The notes below the pieces were generated by a model. The model ran no database searches and had not been told where the DNA came from. It saw nothing but the letters and a program-made list of their open reading frames with translations. A stretch of DNA of 64,000 nucleotides from Bolinopsis microptera (taxonomy: Eukaryota > Ctenophora > Tentaculata > Lobata > Bolinopsidae): contig NC_087074.1 of assembly GCF_026151205.1 (NCBI RefSeq), positions 8,411,726-8,475,725 on the forward strand, read 5' to 3'. This document shows, one piece after another, positions 5,324 through 31,173 of the stretch. A program made the position numbers and the translations under genes. Position 1 is the first letter of the stretch, and every line of letters begins with the position of its first letter.

Positions 5324-5681
5324 CTTCAAGTCTGCCCAGAAGACCTACGATCAGTTATTTGCTGGTCTGAAAAAACCTTCACTGATATTTTTCACTGTGG
5401 AACCTTTCTGAAGCCCAAGGGTAGCAATCTAGTATTCAGGATATTAATCATTTTTAATAGTGCGACTTTATATACCTTAAAACTCGTCACTCAGCCTAGC
5501 TCAATATATTTTGAGTGATATATCAAAATAAATGTTTATGATTTATCTGTCCGGAAAGTGCACCTTAGACCTGGGTGAATCTTCTCGTTACAGTTGACAT
5601 ACAGTTTGCATGAGCATGTGTTTAAGAACTTGAATCACAATAACATAATTATCTTCATGTCACACAGATTGAGTTACCACA
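5324..5681. other. Upstream region of the PLAC8-like gene
   Basis: Contains an AT-rich stretch with TTTATATA near 5467 and, just before the start codon, a TCATGTCACACAG sequence ending at 5668 that resembles a 3' splice site. A non-coding first exon upstream is possible. No promoter can be fixed from sequence alone. Confidence 0.3.
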
Positions 5682-6425
5682 ATGAACCAGCAAGTAACTG
5701 TTATAAACCAAGGGGGTGGTAATGAATGGAACAACGAATGGAGTCACAGTCTGTTTGGGTGTTTTGACGACTGTGGAGAGTGTCTGCTCGCATGGTGTTT
5801 TCCGTGCATCACCTTCGGTTTGAATGCCCGGGATTCTGGGACTTGCTGTGGAGGTTGCTGTGGGGCGTTCTGTGGCTGTATAATGTTCTTCTGTCCATTT
5901 GCAGTTTGTGCCTGGTGTTGCTGCATCAGACCTGGCATCAGGAGAAAATACAGGATCCACACTAATTGCTGTTTGGATTTACTGGCCATTTGTTGTTGTC
6001 CTTGTTGTTCTTTGATCCAGGAACGACAACAATGCAAAACAGCCATCCCTTTTGCAAGTCAGCAAGTTATTGTGGTACAGAACGTGGTAACAGTCGCTCC
6101 TCAGTCTTATGCTACAACTGAACAGCACCTCCCTGCAGATCCTAACGTGTATGGCAAAGGACCTTCCCAGGTACCCCCTCAACAGCATGATCCTGGGCCA
6201 TCTCAACAGTACCCTTCTAGATCCCCTCAACAGTACCCCCCAGCTCTTCTTCAAAGAGATCATCCTGCTCTTCCTCAAAGAGATCCTCCTGCTCTGCCTC
6301 AAAGAGATCCTCCTGCTCTGCCTCCAAACGCACCTCCAGGAGCATCTCAAAGTCAGTACGCCCCTTATAATCTGTACCCCCCTGCTCCCCCTCGAAGAGA
6401 TGACCCACCACCGTACACACCTTGA
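5682..6425 (+). CDS. PLAC8/cornifelin-family cysteine-rich protein with PPxY tail
   Basis: Single-exon protein of 247 residues. The family acts at membranes or the cell cortex, for example cornifelin, placenta-specific 8 and the plant cell-number/metal-transport relatives. Residues 20-120 form the PLAC8 domain: a WSHSLFGCFDDCGEC start, the CFPC motif at 39-42, a Cys-rich hydrophobic middle (about 54-81) and the closing CCCPCCSLIQERQQCK (about 104-119), where the family usually has CCPCxLxQExRE. Residues 150-247 are an added low-complexity tail rich in Pro and Gln, with three PALPQRDP-type repeats, ending in PPPY, a canonical WW-domain ligand that could recruit NEDD4-type ligases. The start is the first ATG of the open frame, in the context CACAATGA. 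The family is certain; the molecular role is not. Confidence 0.92.
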   Translation: MNQQVTVINQGGGNEWNNEWSHSLFGCFDDCGECLLAWCFPCITFGLNARDSGTCCGGCCGAFCGCIMFFCPFAVCAWCCCIRPGIRRKYRIHTNCCLDLLAICCCPCCSLIQERQQCKTAIPFASQQVIVVQNVVTVAPQSYATTEQHLPADPNVYGKGPSQVPPQQHDPGPSQQYPSRSPQQYPPALLQRDHPALPQRDPPALPQRDPPALPPNAPPGASQSQYAPYNLYPPAPPRRDDPPPYTP

Positions 6426-7051: not shown

Positions 7052-9689
7052 GTAGAGCACTACGTGGAAAAGCCAGAGACATTTGTCAGCAACACAATCA
7101 ACTGTGGGGTATATGTACTCGGAATAGGAGTCTTGGACCACATGAAGGTAATTCAATGATATCTTTTGGAATCCAATATAGAGAGTTGTTAAAACACCAT
7201 CTGAATTGTAGGGGGTTCTGGTAATATTTAATCTAAATTCTCCCGAAAAAACCGAACCTAAAATAACCTGCAGGAGGTGTTCCAAGAACTACAAAGTGCA
7301 ACTCTCAGTACAGACTGTATCCAACTAGAACGGAACATCCTTTCTACCTTCGCAGGAACTCGCAAACTCTTCGTTTATCGTCACAATGGATTCTGGTCTC
7401 AGGTACGAGGTAAATAGCGATTCTACGAAATCAGTCCGAAATATAAACACTACAAATACGTAAAAAGAACTTAATAGCAACACAACAGATACGTTATAAG
7501 TACGAAATAGAAAATCAACAAAAACGTATAAAGTTACAAGTACGTTATATGAATATTCTTTTTAGTACGCTATAATAACGTGATTGATAGGCACCACCAA
7601 AAAATCAAATCGGATGTACTAAATCTCCAAATTACTGTGATCATAATGTTTAATATTATTAAACCAAGTCTCTTGTAAAATTTGACTAGACGCAAGTGCA
7701 CTAAAATGTAGTAATCAGAAGTCAATGACTAGACAGTAGAGACTAATATAAAAGATAAATTCATTAATTTTGAACCCTTTTGAAGAATTTGTTCTGTTGA
7801 TGTGACAATTCTTCAAATAACCCCCATTTACAGCATGAATTAAATGCAAGCATAAGTTATTGTAAGAAACAATACCTCAGATGTATAAACACCTGCTGAC
7901 ATTATAACCACTGTGTAGACTCTAGACAGGTGCAGATAATTGCATATATTTTATTACATAATAATAATATATTATAATATTATCATATCCCTAAAATCCA
8001 GATCAAGACGCCAGGAACGGCCGTGTTTGCGTCCCAGTACTACCTCAGTAGACGAAGGAACGAGGACGCCGAGTCCCTGGCTAAAGGTCCAAATATTATT
8101 GGAGACGTTCTAATTCATCCATCCGCTAATGTAAGTTTAAAATCTTAGGTATGTTTCTTCAAAATGTGCGGATACATTGAATTATTTTCAGAGGAGGTGA
8201 CTTAATTAACGTCGCATTATAAAACTCATTCTCCGGATTTTATTGTGGAAATGCTGTGTATTATTAACTCTATTAACTGTGTGAAACTTCGAACATGTCA
8301 GCGCAGTTTAACTAATATGAATATAACTAACAAATAGTAGGGGCAGCTGGTCAGCCGGCACAATGTCACTCCTCTTAAACGACATTATTAGGTAATAAAC
8401 GACATTATAATCTCTTAACGACAATATTACAAGATAAACGACATTATATTCTGTTAATGACAATATTACAAGATAAACGACATTATATTCTATTAATGAC
8501 AATATTACGAGATAAACGACATTTTAATCTCTTATCAAAATTTAAACGACATTATTGCCAAAAGCGACGATATTCGTGGGAATTGCACCGGCTGACCAGC
8601 TGCCCAGTAGAAACTAGCACGAGCCCCTTAGGTCCTCACTCCTCAGAGCAAGTACAAAAAATAATATCTAGGTATCAAAATGATATGTAGGTATTAGTCG
8701 TCTGATAGCTTATTGCAGCAGGTTAGCTGTCCACCTGCTACAATAAGCTGAGCAGGTGTTGGGGCGACGCGCGTCATTCTGAAATTCCGTGTGCACTATA
8801 AAATACATAGTAGGCAGTGCGCCATCGACAATAAGACGCGCGCGCTGACCATTGAATGGTTTTTTAGCTCTTATTTCGGCCAGCACATTATTTTGGAAAC
8901 AATCGAAAAGTTATAATACTTCCCATATAACAATTTTGTTGAAATTTGGTCAGTTTACGTAAACACTTATGTTCTACTGAACCTAATTTAGTTTGAGCAA
9001 TTTCGATGCTCAAAATTTGAGTTATCAACGAATTTATACCTATTTTGTCATTTTTAGACCTCTTAGTCAAGGCCAATCTCTCCCAACTAAATTAGGTTCG
9101 GTAGTTAAATATGATTGGAAGGTTCTGACAAATTTTCAGCATGATTCATGTTCAGGAACCGAAGATATGACAAAATAATACGACAAAAATCAACGAATTT
9201 CGTCAAATTACGCGACTTTCACACCTAATTTTGCTCCAAAAGCCGCGCACCATCAAATATGGCACCTAGGCGAAACTCACTGATCATTCCAAAAAGGTAT
9301 GATAAATTTGGTACTGTGAAAATTCTCACAGTCTTTAGAAAACGATGGTACAAAAATTTTGAAAATCCGAGCAAGTTTATTTTATCGTGCACCGCCTATA
9401 CATAGTATTAGTTACACGTCTTAAAGCGCTAAGGTCCTTGATAAGCGGTACATGTAGTAGGTAAGAGTCTTAATGTCGGTAAAATATAACTTTACAGTCA
9501 TCCTCAATAAATGTAATAGATTTGTAGTGGCGTAATTAGTTTAAAACTATATTAGTGATTTTATCTTTTTTTGGCATTTTTAATGTCGAAGAATGGAATA
9601 AATTCACTATAACATCTACTTAGGGGTCGTTCACATATTACGTAATCAGCTGAGGGGGGAGGGGGTTTCCAAATGCTTACGGTTGATTA

Positions 9690-9726
<37 letters not shown>

Positions 9727-10774: not shown

Positions 10775-10827
<53 letters not shown>

Positions 10828-12863
10828 GGGTCTTGATTACGGTTGATTACGGAAGGGGGGGGGGGGGTAAAAATTGCTAAAATATTGATTACGTAATATG
10901 TGAACGACCCCTTATATTTACTTACAAATTACGATTAAATGTTTAATGAAATGAGATCTGAAGTGTTTCAAATCTTCTGTTTCCAGGTTTCCAGTAGCGC
11001 TGTGCTGGGCCCTAACGTAACGATCGGAGCAAACACAGTAGTTAAAGACGGAGTGAGGATAAAGCACTCAATTCTACTAGAGGGCTGTCAGGTCAGTATA
11101 CTAAGTGCCGGCTTATCACGTGACAACTTTATCTTCCAGACAATTTGTAGTTTATGTTACTTAAAAAATTAAGTCGGTAGGTTATGAAATTTATAAAATT
11201 TATACCTACCGATTTGATAACTTTGTCTTCCAGACACTTGCGTCGATTTGTAGTTTTATAACTTACTGACGCGCGCCTTGAGCTGTACTCAGCTCTTCCA
11301 AAGAAGGGTTGGGCGGTCTTCACCTGTCAAATAACAAGTTCTTGCGAGATCAATTTAAAATATAATAAAATACTCTCTAAAATGCCCCCTATATTCTCGT
11401 AGATATTTCTACAATATCCCATATATTGTATTCATGACAGGTAGATCAACATGCCTGTATTCTGTACACGGTGGTGGGAGGCGGCACTCGTGTTGGTAGC
11501 TGGGCTCGTCTAGAGGGAACTCCTACTGCCGTCAACCCTAACAAACCCCTCGCTCACATCACTAATCCTCCGTAAGTATACTAACAAACCCATCGCTCAC
11601 ATCACTAATCCTCCGTAAGTATACTAACAAACCCCTCGCTCACATCACTAATCCTCCGTAAGTATACTAACAAACCCCTCGCTCACATCACTAATCCTCC
11701 GTAAGTATACTAACAAACCCCTCGCTCACATCACTAATCCTCCGTAAGTATACTAACAAACCCCTCGCTCACATCACTAATCCTCCGTAAGTATACTAAC
11801 AAACCCCTCGCTCACATCACTAATCCTCCGTAAGTATACTAACAAACCCCTCGCTCACATCACTAATCCTCCGTAAGTATACTAACAAACCCCTCGCTCA
11901 CATCACTAATCCTCCGTAAGTATACTAACAAACCCCTCGCTCATATCTCTTATCCTCCGTAAGTATACTAACAAACCCCTCGCTCACATCACTAATCCTC
12001 CATAAGTATACTAACAAACCCCTCGCTCATATCTCTTATCCTCCGTGAGTATACTAACAAACCCCTCGCTCATATCTCTTATCCTCCGTGAGTATACTAA
12101 CAAACCCCTCGCTCACATCACTAATCCTCCGTAAGTATACTAACAAACCCCTCGCTCACATCACTAATCCTCCGTAAGTATACTAACAAACCCCTCGCTC
12201 ACATCACTAATCCTCCGTAAGTATACTAACAAACCCCTCGCTCATATCACTTATCCTCCGTAAGTATACTAACAAACCCCTCGCTCATAGCACTAATTCT
12301 CTGTAAGTATACTAACAAACCCCTCGCTCACATCACTAATCCTCCGTAAGTATACTAACAAACCCCTCGCTCACATCACTAATCCTCCGTAAGTATACTA
12401 ACAAACCCCTCGCTCATATCACTTATCCTCCGTAAGTATACTAACAAACCCCTCGCTCATAGCACTAATTCTCTGTAAGTATACTAACAAACCCCTCGCT
12501 CATATCACTAATCCTCCGTGAGTATACGAACAAACCCCTCGCTCATAGCACTAATCCTCCGTAAGTATACTAACAAACCCCTCGCTCATATCACTTATCC
12601 TTCGTGAGTATAATACTTGTCTAATTCTTCAGAATTCTCTAAGGGTTCTGTATTTCAGAGTAGCATATCTTAAGAATGTTATAGTAAAATGGTCAGTAAC
12701 AATTTCAATCCACAGAACGTTTAACGAAGAGGGGAAGTTGAATCCCAATATAACTGTTCTAGGTCATAATACCAATATCTCTAAAGGAACCCTGATTCTT
12801 AATTCTATTATTTTGCCTTACAAAGACATTGACCATTCACACAAGAATGTTATTTTACTTTGA
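7052..12863 (+). CDS. GMPPA: GMPPA, mannose-1-phosphate guanylyltransferase regulatory subunit alpha (3' part)
   Basis: Six exons encode about 245 C-terminal residues: 7052-7147, 7274-7402, 8002-8130, 10987-11091, 11441-11571 and 12716-12863 (stop TGA). All junctions are GT-AG and keep frame; the last join is phase 2 to phase 1. Recognisable segments are HYVEKPETFVSNTINCG, WSQIKTPGTAVFASQYYL, the left-handed beta-helix SAVLGPNVTIG and WARLEGTP, and the end LILNSIILP, closely matching animal GMPPA. GMPPA senses GDP-mannose and restrains the catalytic GMPPB subunit in the cytosol. The N-terminal nucleotidyltransferase half is not seen in the window, although a complete PLAC8-like gene sits just upstream. 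The fifth exon's donor lies at the start of a 25-copy tandem array. An AATAAA at 13443 beyond a transposon could serve the 3' end. Confidence 0.9.
8341..8605. mobile_element. MITE with 5-bp target duplication
   Basis: A 265-bp element in a GMPPA intron. Perfect terminal inverted repeats GGGCAGCTGGTCAGCCGG (8341-8358 and the complement at 8588-8605) are flanked by AGTAG on both sides (8336-8340, 8606-8610). The interior is a tandem array of about 38-bp units built on AAACGACATTATA and TAATGACAATATTAC. It has no coding capacity. The superfamily is not assigned. Confidence 0.85.
8699..9420. repeat. Repeat-like intronic sequence with local inversions
   Basis: Contains short inverted pairs (TAGCTTATTG with CAATAAGCT at 8707-8750) and a nested pair around AACCTAATTTAG (8989-9000) and CTAAATTAGGTT (9087-9098). 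It resembles a decayed foldback element, but clean ends were not found. Confidence 0.4.
9623..10911. mobile_element. Harbinger-like MITE (GGGGTCGTTCACATATTACG ends) with poly(G)
   Basis: The left end GGGGTCGTTCACATATTACG and its complement at 10892-10911 are flanked by TTA on both sides (9620-9622, 10912-10914). A 3-bp TWA duplication with G-rich ends suits PIF/Harbinger. The subterminal regions carry GGTTGATTACGG motifs next to homopolymer G runs: 35 G at 9691-9725, 51 G at 10775-10825 and 13 G near 10855-10867. A second element is inserted inside it. It lies in a GMPPA intron. Related copies lie at 12975-13339 and 16365. Confidence 0.8.
9887..10662. mobile_element. Nested Tc1/mariner-type MITE (TA flanks)
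   Basis: Terminal inverted repeats begin CAGGGTGGGTCAAAAGTCAG at 9887. The matching right end finishes at 10662, with about 42 bp of TIR and five differences. TA stands immediately outside both ends (9885-9886, 10663-10664). The element sits inside the Harbinger-like MITE, so it inserted later. No transposase frame of normal length is present; it is a non-autonomous copy. Confidence 0.82.
11538..12612 (+). repeat. 25-copy 43-bp minisatellite spanning a splice donor
   Basis: The unit begins CTAACAAACCCCTCGCTCAC and ends TCCGTAAGTATA. It recurs exactly every 43 bp from 11538 to 12570, giving 25 copies. The first copy comprises the last 34 nt of a GMPPA exon plus the first nine intronic bases, so every copy repeats a donor (GTAAGT, or GTGAGT in a few). 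The junction between units reads TACTAAC, the optimal branch-point consensus. Copies are nearly identical near the left and vary more towards the right (CATATCTCTTATCC, CATAGCACTAATTCTC variants). Confidence 0.97.
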
Positions 12864-12974: not shown

Positions 12975-13339
12975 AAAGGGACATATTTTACTTCACATAT
13001 TACGTAATCAATATTTTGGCAATTTTTACCCCCCTCCGTAATCAACCGTAATCAAGACCCCCCCCCCCCCCCCCCTATATTACGTAATCAAGGTTTTAAC
13101 CCCCCCCCCCCCCCCCCCCCCCCCTCCGTAATCAAGACCCCCCCCCCCCCCCCCCCCCCCCCCCATTTTTGAGTTAAATTTTGATGTAGAGATACATTTG
13201 ATTACAATTTTGATTACATAATTAACGAAAATTGTCCAATTGGTATTTCGAAAATCGGTAAAAAATTAAAATTTTGATTACGTAATCAACAACCAAACCC
13301 CCCCCCCCTCGGCTGATTACGTAATATGTGAACGACCCC
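12975..13339. mobile_element. Degraded Harbinger-like MITE in the GMPPA 3' region
   Basis: The right end, complement of GGGGTCGTTCACATATTACG, finishes at 13339 and is followed by TAA. The left end is interrupted (CACATATTACGTAATCA at 12997). The interior holds several C runs of about 18-27 bases separated by CCGTAATCAA motifs, the complement of the copy at 9623. It lies about 110 bp after the GMPPA stop codon, before the next AATAAA (13443), so it may be transcribed in the 3' UTR. Confidence 0.7.

Positions 13340-31109: not shown

Positions 31110-31173
<64 letters not shown>
31110..31173. repeat. 64-base poly(C) tract
   Basis: An unbroken run of 64 C, followed by TTAA. Its length may be unreliable in the assembly. 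Confidence 0.9.

Follow-up and report, generated by a model that had tools for sequence, protein, structure and literature searches.

A 25-copy minisatellite, most likely tolerated, across an exon-intron boundary of GMPPA in the ctenophore Bolinopsis microptera

In a 64,000 nt stretch of the Bolinopsis microptera genome (NC_087074.1, positions 8,411,726 to 8,475,725, here called the window) the second-last exon of GMPPA, a gene of sugar metabolism, runs into an array of 43-bp units that repeats the exon end together with the donor of the following intron. Judged by its sequence the array belongs to the mirages, as minisatellites lying across the edge between exon and intron are called; the type is known from amphioxus, human IFI6 being similar, and the array is most likely a tolerated repeat. 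It has probably grown passively, with the first donor (donor 1) chosen by its position and the decoys mostly ignored.

The last six GMPPA exons of the window (Table 1), joined by hand, form one uninterrupted frame down to the stop codon, their edges towards introns being bordered by AG on the acceptor side and GT on the donor side, and their product matches human GMPPA (PDB 7d72_A, E 3.4e-61) from residue 166 to its end at 420, confirming the gene named in the original prediction. The name rests on the PDB matches because two GMPPA exons searched singly gave no Pfam family. Upstream on the same contig (C3) lie the start exon and three middle segments, which together with the last six exons are ordered over 18 kb; the gene looks intact, the placement of its N-terminal half being partial. 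Only one clear GMPPA match is present in the assembly, the other hit at E <= 0.1 (C8, E 0.08) overlapping an NTP_transferase hit and probably being GMPPB. The loop at donor 1 aligns without gaps to human GMPPA (NPNKPLAHITNPP and NPNDPRARMDSES, respectively) until a single additional residue in the last exon, so donor 1 fits a conserved exon edge and the exonic copy was taken as ancestral. This loop, where the array starts, may correspond to the allosteric C-loop that PMC9424295 mentions for the alpha subunit.

Between the GMPPA exons and on the same strand lies a gene for a PLAC8-family protein (PF04749, E 1.6e-17; window 5673-6425, +) with an in-frame 24-bp repeat at 6243-6324. A MITE-like repeated element with the ends GATTACGTAATATGTG(AACGACCCC) is found in both orientations near 9623, 10887, 12994, 13315 and 16365, several copies lying beside pure runs of G or C (35 at 9691, 51 at 10775 and 18-27 near 13100), and a further run of 64 C is located at 31110.

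Table 1. Features of the GMPPA locus (window positions) and boundary arrays at other loci of the assembly
Feature	Position or locus	Strand	Description or basis
GMPPA exon (VEHYVEKPETF...HMK)	7052..7147	+	open frame, AG/GT edges, match to human GMPPA 7d72_A
GMPPA exon (EVFQEL...GFWSQ)	7274..7402	+	open frame, AG/GT edges, 7d72_A
GMPPA exon (IKTPGTAV...IHPSAN)	8002..8130	+	open frame, AG/GT edges, 7d72_A
GMPPA exon (VSSSAVLGP...LEGCQ)	10987..11091	+	open frame, AG/GT edges, 7d72_A
GMPPA second-last exon	11441..11571	+	131 nt, of which the final 34 nt make up the exonic portion of copy 1
Minisatellite, 25 x 43 bp	11538..12612	+	unit CTAACAAACCCCTCGCTCACATCACTAATCCTCC/GTAAGTATA, crosses exon-intron boundary
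Donor 1, GTAAGT	11572..11577	+	sole one of 24 keeping GMPPA in frame
Last GMPPA intron	11572..12715	+	1144 nt via donor 1, 112 nt via donor 25
Copy 11, donor lost	12002..12007	+	ATAAGT
Two identical 4-unit blocks	12140..12483	+	copies 15-18 = 19-22, 172 bp each
GMPPA last exon	12716..12863	+	48 sense codons, stop and one split-codon base
Donor array	L006		Sushi, E 0.043, under Pfam cut-off
Donor array	L007/L008		Sushi, E 0.0038, under Pfam cut-off
Donor array	L104		NNT, PNTB_4TM, E 6.4e-10; neighbouring exon matches NNT 6qti_A, E 2.7e-6
Donor array	L103		open frame only, without domain or PDB support
Acceptor arrays, two introns of CDK-like kinase	L003		two exons Pkinase, E 5.9e-20 and 6.2e-13; exon after second array by eye

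Analysis with TRF gave 25.0 copies of period 43 with 95% matches and 0% indels, in agreement with the 25 exactly spaced copies predicted, and the unit does straddle the boundary, being composed of 34 exon-derived and 9 intron-derived bp with all copies head-to-tail. A donor had been expected in every copy; GTRAGT is found in 24 of the 25 (20 GTAAGT and four GTGAGT), copy 11 having lost it, which leaves 23 GTRAGT decoys and not 24. Thirteen copies (1, 3-9, 14-16, 19 and 20) have the sequence of copy 1, copies 12 and 13 are identical, and the variants are interspersed from copy 10 onward except for one change in copy 2. The duplication of a block within the array suggests turnover, as seen in one assembly. 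Among the 25 copies 9 of 34 exon-derived and 2 of 9 intron-derived columns are variable, and as the donor columns vary about like the rest they give no hint of selection keeping the donors. A DNA search with the array through the assembly (264.65 Mb in 232 contigs; C1-C13, each 15.2-26.2 Mb, hold together 258.07 Mb), using a search that skips very common words, gave matches at the GMPPA locus only. Mitochondrial COX1 had no match in this assembly.

The heptamer TACTAAC, predicted as a perfect motif at each unit junction and as an amplified branch point, is present at 23 of the 24 junctions (copy 24 gives TACGAAC), where intronic ...GTATA joins exonic CTAAC... (Pro-Asn codons). The label of branch point was rejected: the heptamer occurs only at unit junctions and is missing in copy 1, which reads CCCTAAC, and it was found within 60 nt of the acceptor in none of 30 mapped myosin introns of this genome. 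The true GMPPA acceptor, after 12715, is far from the last TACTAAC.

The array has a unit of minisatellite length, crosses from exon to intron within a real gene and repeats splice signals, as mirages do. PMC3087553 describes mirages as tandem repeats across exon-intron boundaries in amphioxus Adh3 and globin genes (BflGb6/9), with normal splicing suggested by RT-PCR and with length and somatic instability, and proposes them as a route to intron gain, while PMC3902484 adds a TnC mirage and similar repeats in PGBD5. These mirages belong to another phylum, whereas the GMPPA array is from Ctenophora and has 25 near-identical copies with 24 GTRAGT. Among the papers listed in the literature searches no boundary minisatellite of a ctenophore was recognisable, which is not proof of absence. 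In the Rogers model, as cited in PMC3087553, introns are gained by tandem duplication of AG/GT sites; a tandem duplication carrying splice sites is shared with the GMPPA array, but the latter has donors without evident acceptor and needs no new intron or exon, one intron merely being longer. Each unit holds one AG within the donor hexamer, copies 18, 22 and 24 hold one more, and the gene model needs no new intron; judging from the units themselves, it is unlikely that they would act as self-contained mini-introns with the AG of GTAAG as acceptor.

The intron following the second-last exon is of phase 2, and use of donor 2 gives ...TNPP* at once. The claim that only the first donor keeps GMPPA intact is supported by the joined exons, which are open to the stop, while later donors add CCG TAA; likewise donor 2 puts the last exon out of frame, and this exon would be lost as predicted. 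The immediate TAA is, on the other hand, not special as had been thought, since by sequence logic a phase-2 intron with GTRAGT always reads xxG TAA or xxG TGA, as also seen in the NNT array of the same genome (AC/G TGA), and the stop is thus no sign of design. The distance from the stop to the new junction is 39 nt with donor 2, 82 nt with donor 3 and 1028 nt with donor 25, and under the 50-55 nt decay rule, which may not hold in ctenophores, only donor 2 products would escape because of their 39 nt.

For the 24 GTRAGT donors the predicted U1 duplex energies lie between -7.3 and -7.7 kcal/mol, against -4.4 for copy 11, and in predicted folding donor 1 (unpaired 0.40) has no advantage in accessibility over the other GTRAGT copies (0.28-0.49). 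RNA structure hiding the decoys was considered and rejected, the predicted folding giving no support. As neither U1 pairing nor accessibility explains the choice of donor, position remains. The intron upstream of the second-last exon is 349 nt and the downstream intron, by donor 1, is 1144 nt; donors 2 and 3 give exons of 174 and 217 nt, and donors 22-25 give introns of 241-112 nt, such short introns being ordinary in this genome, where 13 of 30 mapped introns are <=250 nt. According to PMC9225289, short introns favour the downstream and exon definition the upstream of two near-equal donors, the switch being put at flanking introns of 200-250 nt; upstream preference is also reported for minigenes with two identical CAG/guaagu donors, and before strength matching the downstream donor was preferred in ~60% of all human events. 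With an upstream intron of 349 nt, an exon of 131 nt and a downstream intron of 1144 nt donor 1 should therefore win, and the strong first-donor preference that was predicted to be needed would fit both the published similar repeats and competing donors under exon definition. The competitors would then be donors 1-3 on one side and donors 22-25 on the other, while the middle donors should be silent. These expectations extrapolate human and amphioxus rules to another phylum, and donors 22-25 stand as a counterpoint to the passive reading, because introns as small as theirs could be recognised through intron definition, under which a downstream donor has the advantage.

The array probably arose by tandem duplication, into the intron, of a 43-bp segment that joins 34 bp of exon end to the 9 bp with which the phase-2 intron begins; slippage and unequal exchange would later have enlarged and homogenised it. 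The last intron, 112 nt when 24 copies are subtracted, would thereby have been lengthened to its present size. Correct GMPPA mRNA would come from donor 1, which is transcribed first and, with the upstream acceptor, would define the normal 131-nt exon (exon definition), while the other 23 GTRAGT sites would be near-identical decoys, mostly ignored through position and not sequence. Any leak to later donors would run into a stop as soon as the true exon is passed; such leakage is presumably low.

An alternative that was raised in the original prediction and that we regard as unlikely, although it fares best among the rivals, is a regulated unproductive splicing in which donors 22-25 compete with donor 1 by intron definition and the length of the array sets GMPPA output, the stop-bearing transcripts being degraded or giving GMPPA minus the last 48 residues. 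In predicted U1 pairing the decoy GTRAGT donors roughly equal donor 1, the introns from donors 22-25 have a size of which there are many in the genome, and the decoys give an immediate stop; GMPPA is moreover described in PMC11228364 as inhibiting GMPPB by feedback, so that the dose of GMPPA could be of consequence. However, the stop follows automatically wherever a phase-2 intron opens with GTRAGT, variation in the donor columns is similar to that in the other columns, and the amphioxus mirages are reported in PMC3087553 as leaving splicing normal.

The repeat of human IFI6 (6-16) has a 12-bp unit, presumably starts at the exon end and, like the GMPPA array, consists of tandem units each offering a donor. 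Two downstream repeat units of IFI6 are used as donors, as stated in PMC4526556 citing Turri 1995, whereas in GMPPA, with its 43-bp unit, every later donor gives a stop. A few early decoys of GMPPA might similarly be used at a low level, as noisy splicing without a role, and donors 2 and 3 with the exons they define would suit this. We consider it quite improbable, as each GMPPA leak product would be truncated and, given the frame of the IFI6 repeats, selection against leak should exceed that in IFI6. That the true copy number is much smaller and the array expanded in assembly is very doubtful, for although assembling arrays is difficult, this one is, at 1075 bp, short relative to long reads, similar arrays are found elsewhere in the genome, and the interspersed variants together with the identical 172-bp block argue that the array is real.

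Besides the GMPPA array, 15 donor-bearing arrays were examined in samples picked by repeat patterns, and six of them straddle an exon edge (Table 1). Nine of the 15 were among the matches listed, all within the initial 0.57 Mb of C1 (+ strand), four were multi-row arrays among the best 100 of 124 rows, and the remaining two were L110 and L111, C3:5930744/5931991 and C4:676861-677218 being left out. The rest comprise one coding repeat (C13:10003386) and eight arrays without recognised exon, L110 and L111 having splice-like units. Three further straddling arrays appeared in the same pieces: sushi donors in L005 (E 2.7e-8) and L006 (E 6.7e-5), and an acceptor at L005:522-825 that lacks domain support. 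The exon at L005:811 has open-frame evidence only, without domain or PDB support.

The CDK-like kinase gene of L003 (C1:216300-218400) has three arrays in two introns, two of them repeating acceptor and exon bases. About 5 kb of 37/44-bp units with GTGAGT and TACTAAC occupy C10:17701344-17706578, the ends lying in L101 and L102 and showing no recognised exon, and the middle being known as pattern rows. In L110 (C4:661700-663400) 44-bp units GTACGG...TTGTTCAG and 39-bp units with GTAAGT...TTTCAG look intron-like, and rows matching L110 occur inverted at C4:676861-677218. The region C1:216-571 kb, near the contig start, appears to be packed with minisatellites whose units are of many different lengths. 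In L056 2713-3186 (C3:9154012-9154485) two neighbouring myosin exons cover the same motor region and look alternative.

In samples not picked by repeats, boundary arrays were found at none of the 60 edges belonging to 30 myosin introns (33 had been mapped and 3 of these were dropped for a score <3, while 11 exon pairs were not joinable) and at none of 39 kinase and sushi exons, where domain edges, not always exon edges, were inspected and two kinase pieces are near-identical paralogues. Set against the repeat-picked six of 15, these counts indicate that such arrays are rare per boundary and dense in one C1 stretch. Two of the unjoined myosin edges are borderline: at L059 6807 a 2.2-copy 20-bp repeat doubles the donor G/GTTAGT plus one exonic base, and at L057 3790 an AT-rich array begins at the donor but does not repeat it. 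Of 13 arrays in myosin introns, 2 start at -3 to +20 of the donor against 0.88 expected, which is not impressive, and the data contain no evidence for a preference of arrays for boundaries. A pattern of three GTRAGT spaced 30-60 bp apart gave 16138 + 16338 matches against 6625 + 5822 for the reversed hexamer, although the two hexamers are about equally frequent in sampled DNA (194 and 180). These matches are rows and not arrays; counted as arrays, the forward-strand matches listed up to C1:570,315 are 9 against 6, two being shared, so that an array-level excess lacks support. The top kinase matches (26 loci) mostly hold the whole domain in one frame and, being useless for boundaries, were used for repeat density only: together with the window they amount to 161,923 bp and hold 20 arrays (period >=15, >=2.5 copies), or 1.76% of bases, and GTRAGT-bearing units are found in one of the 20, the GMPPA array.

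It is a long shot that boundary arrays recur in this genome and that the length of the GMPPA array serves as a splicing rheostat. If true, growth would take the intron from 112 nt, where intron definition applies, to 1.1 kb and thus to exon definition, and the balance of donors 1-3 against donors 22-25 would set the GMPPA dose and hence the feedback inhibition of GMPPB. The GMPPA array extends boundary minisatellites to a ctenophore, with more in kinase, sushi-domain and NNT genes, and is relevant to the lengthening and change of introns. With 24 donors of near-equal predicted strength set at 43-nt steps (one of 86 nt) before one acceptor in a native gene, it also offers a natural system in which the rules of first-come choice, exon definition and intron definition can be compared.
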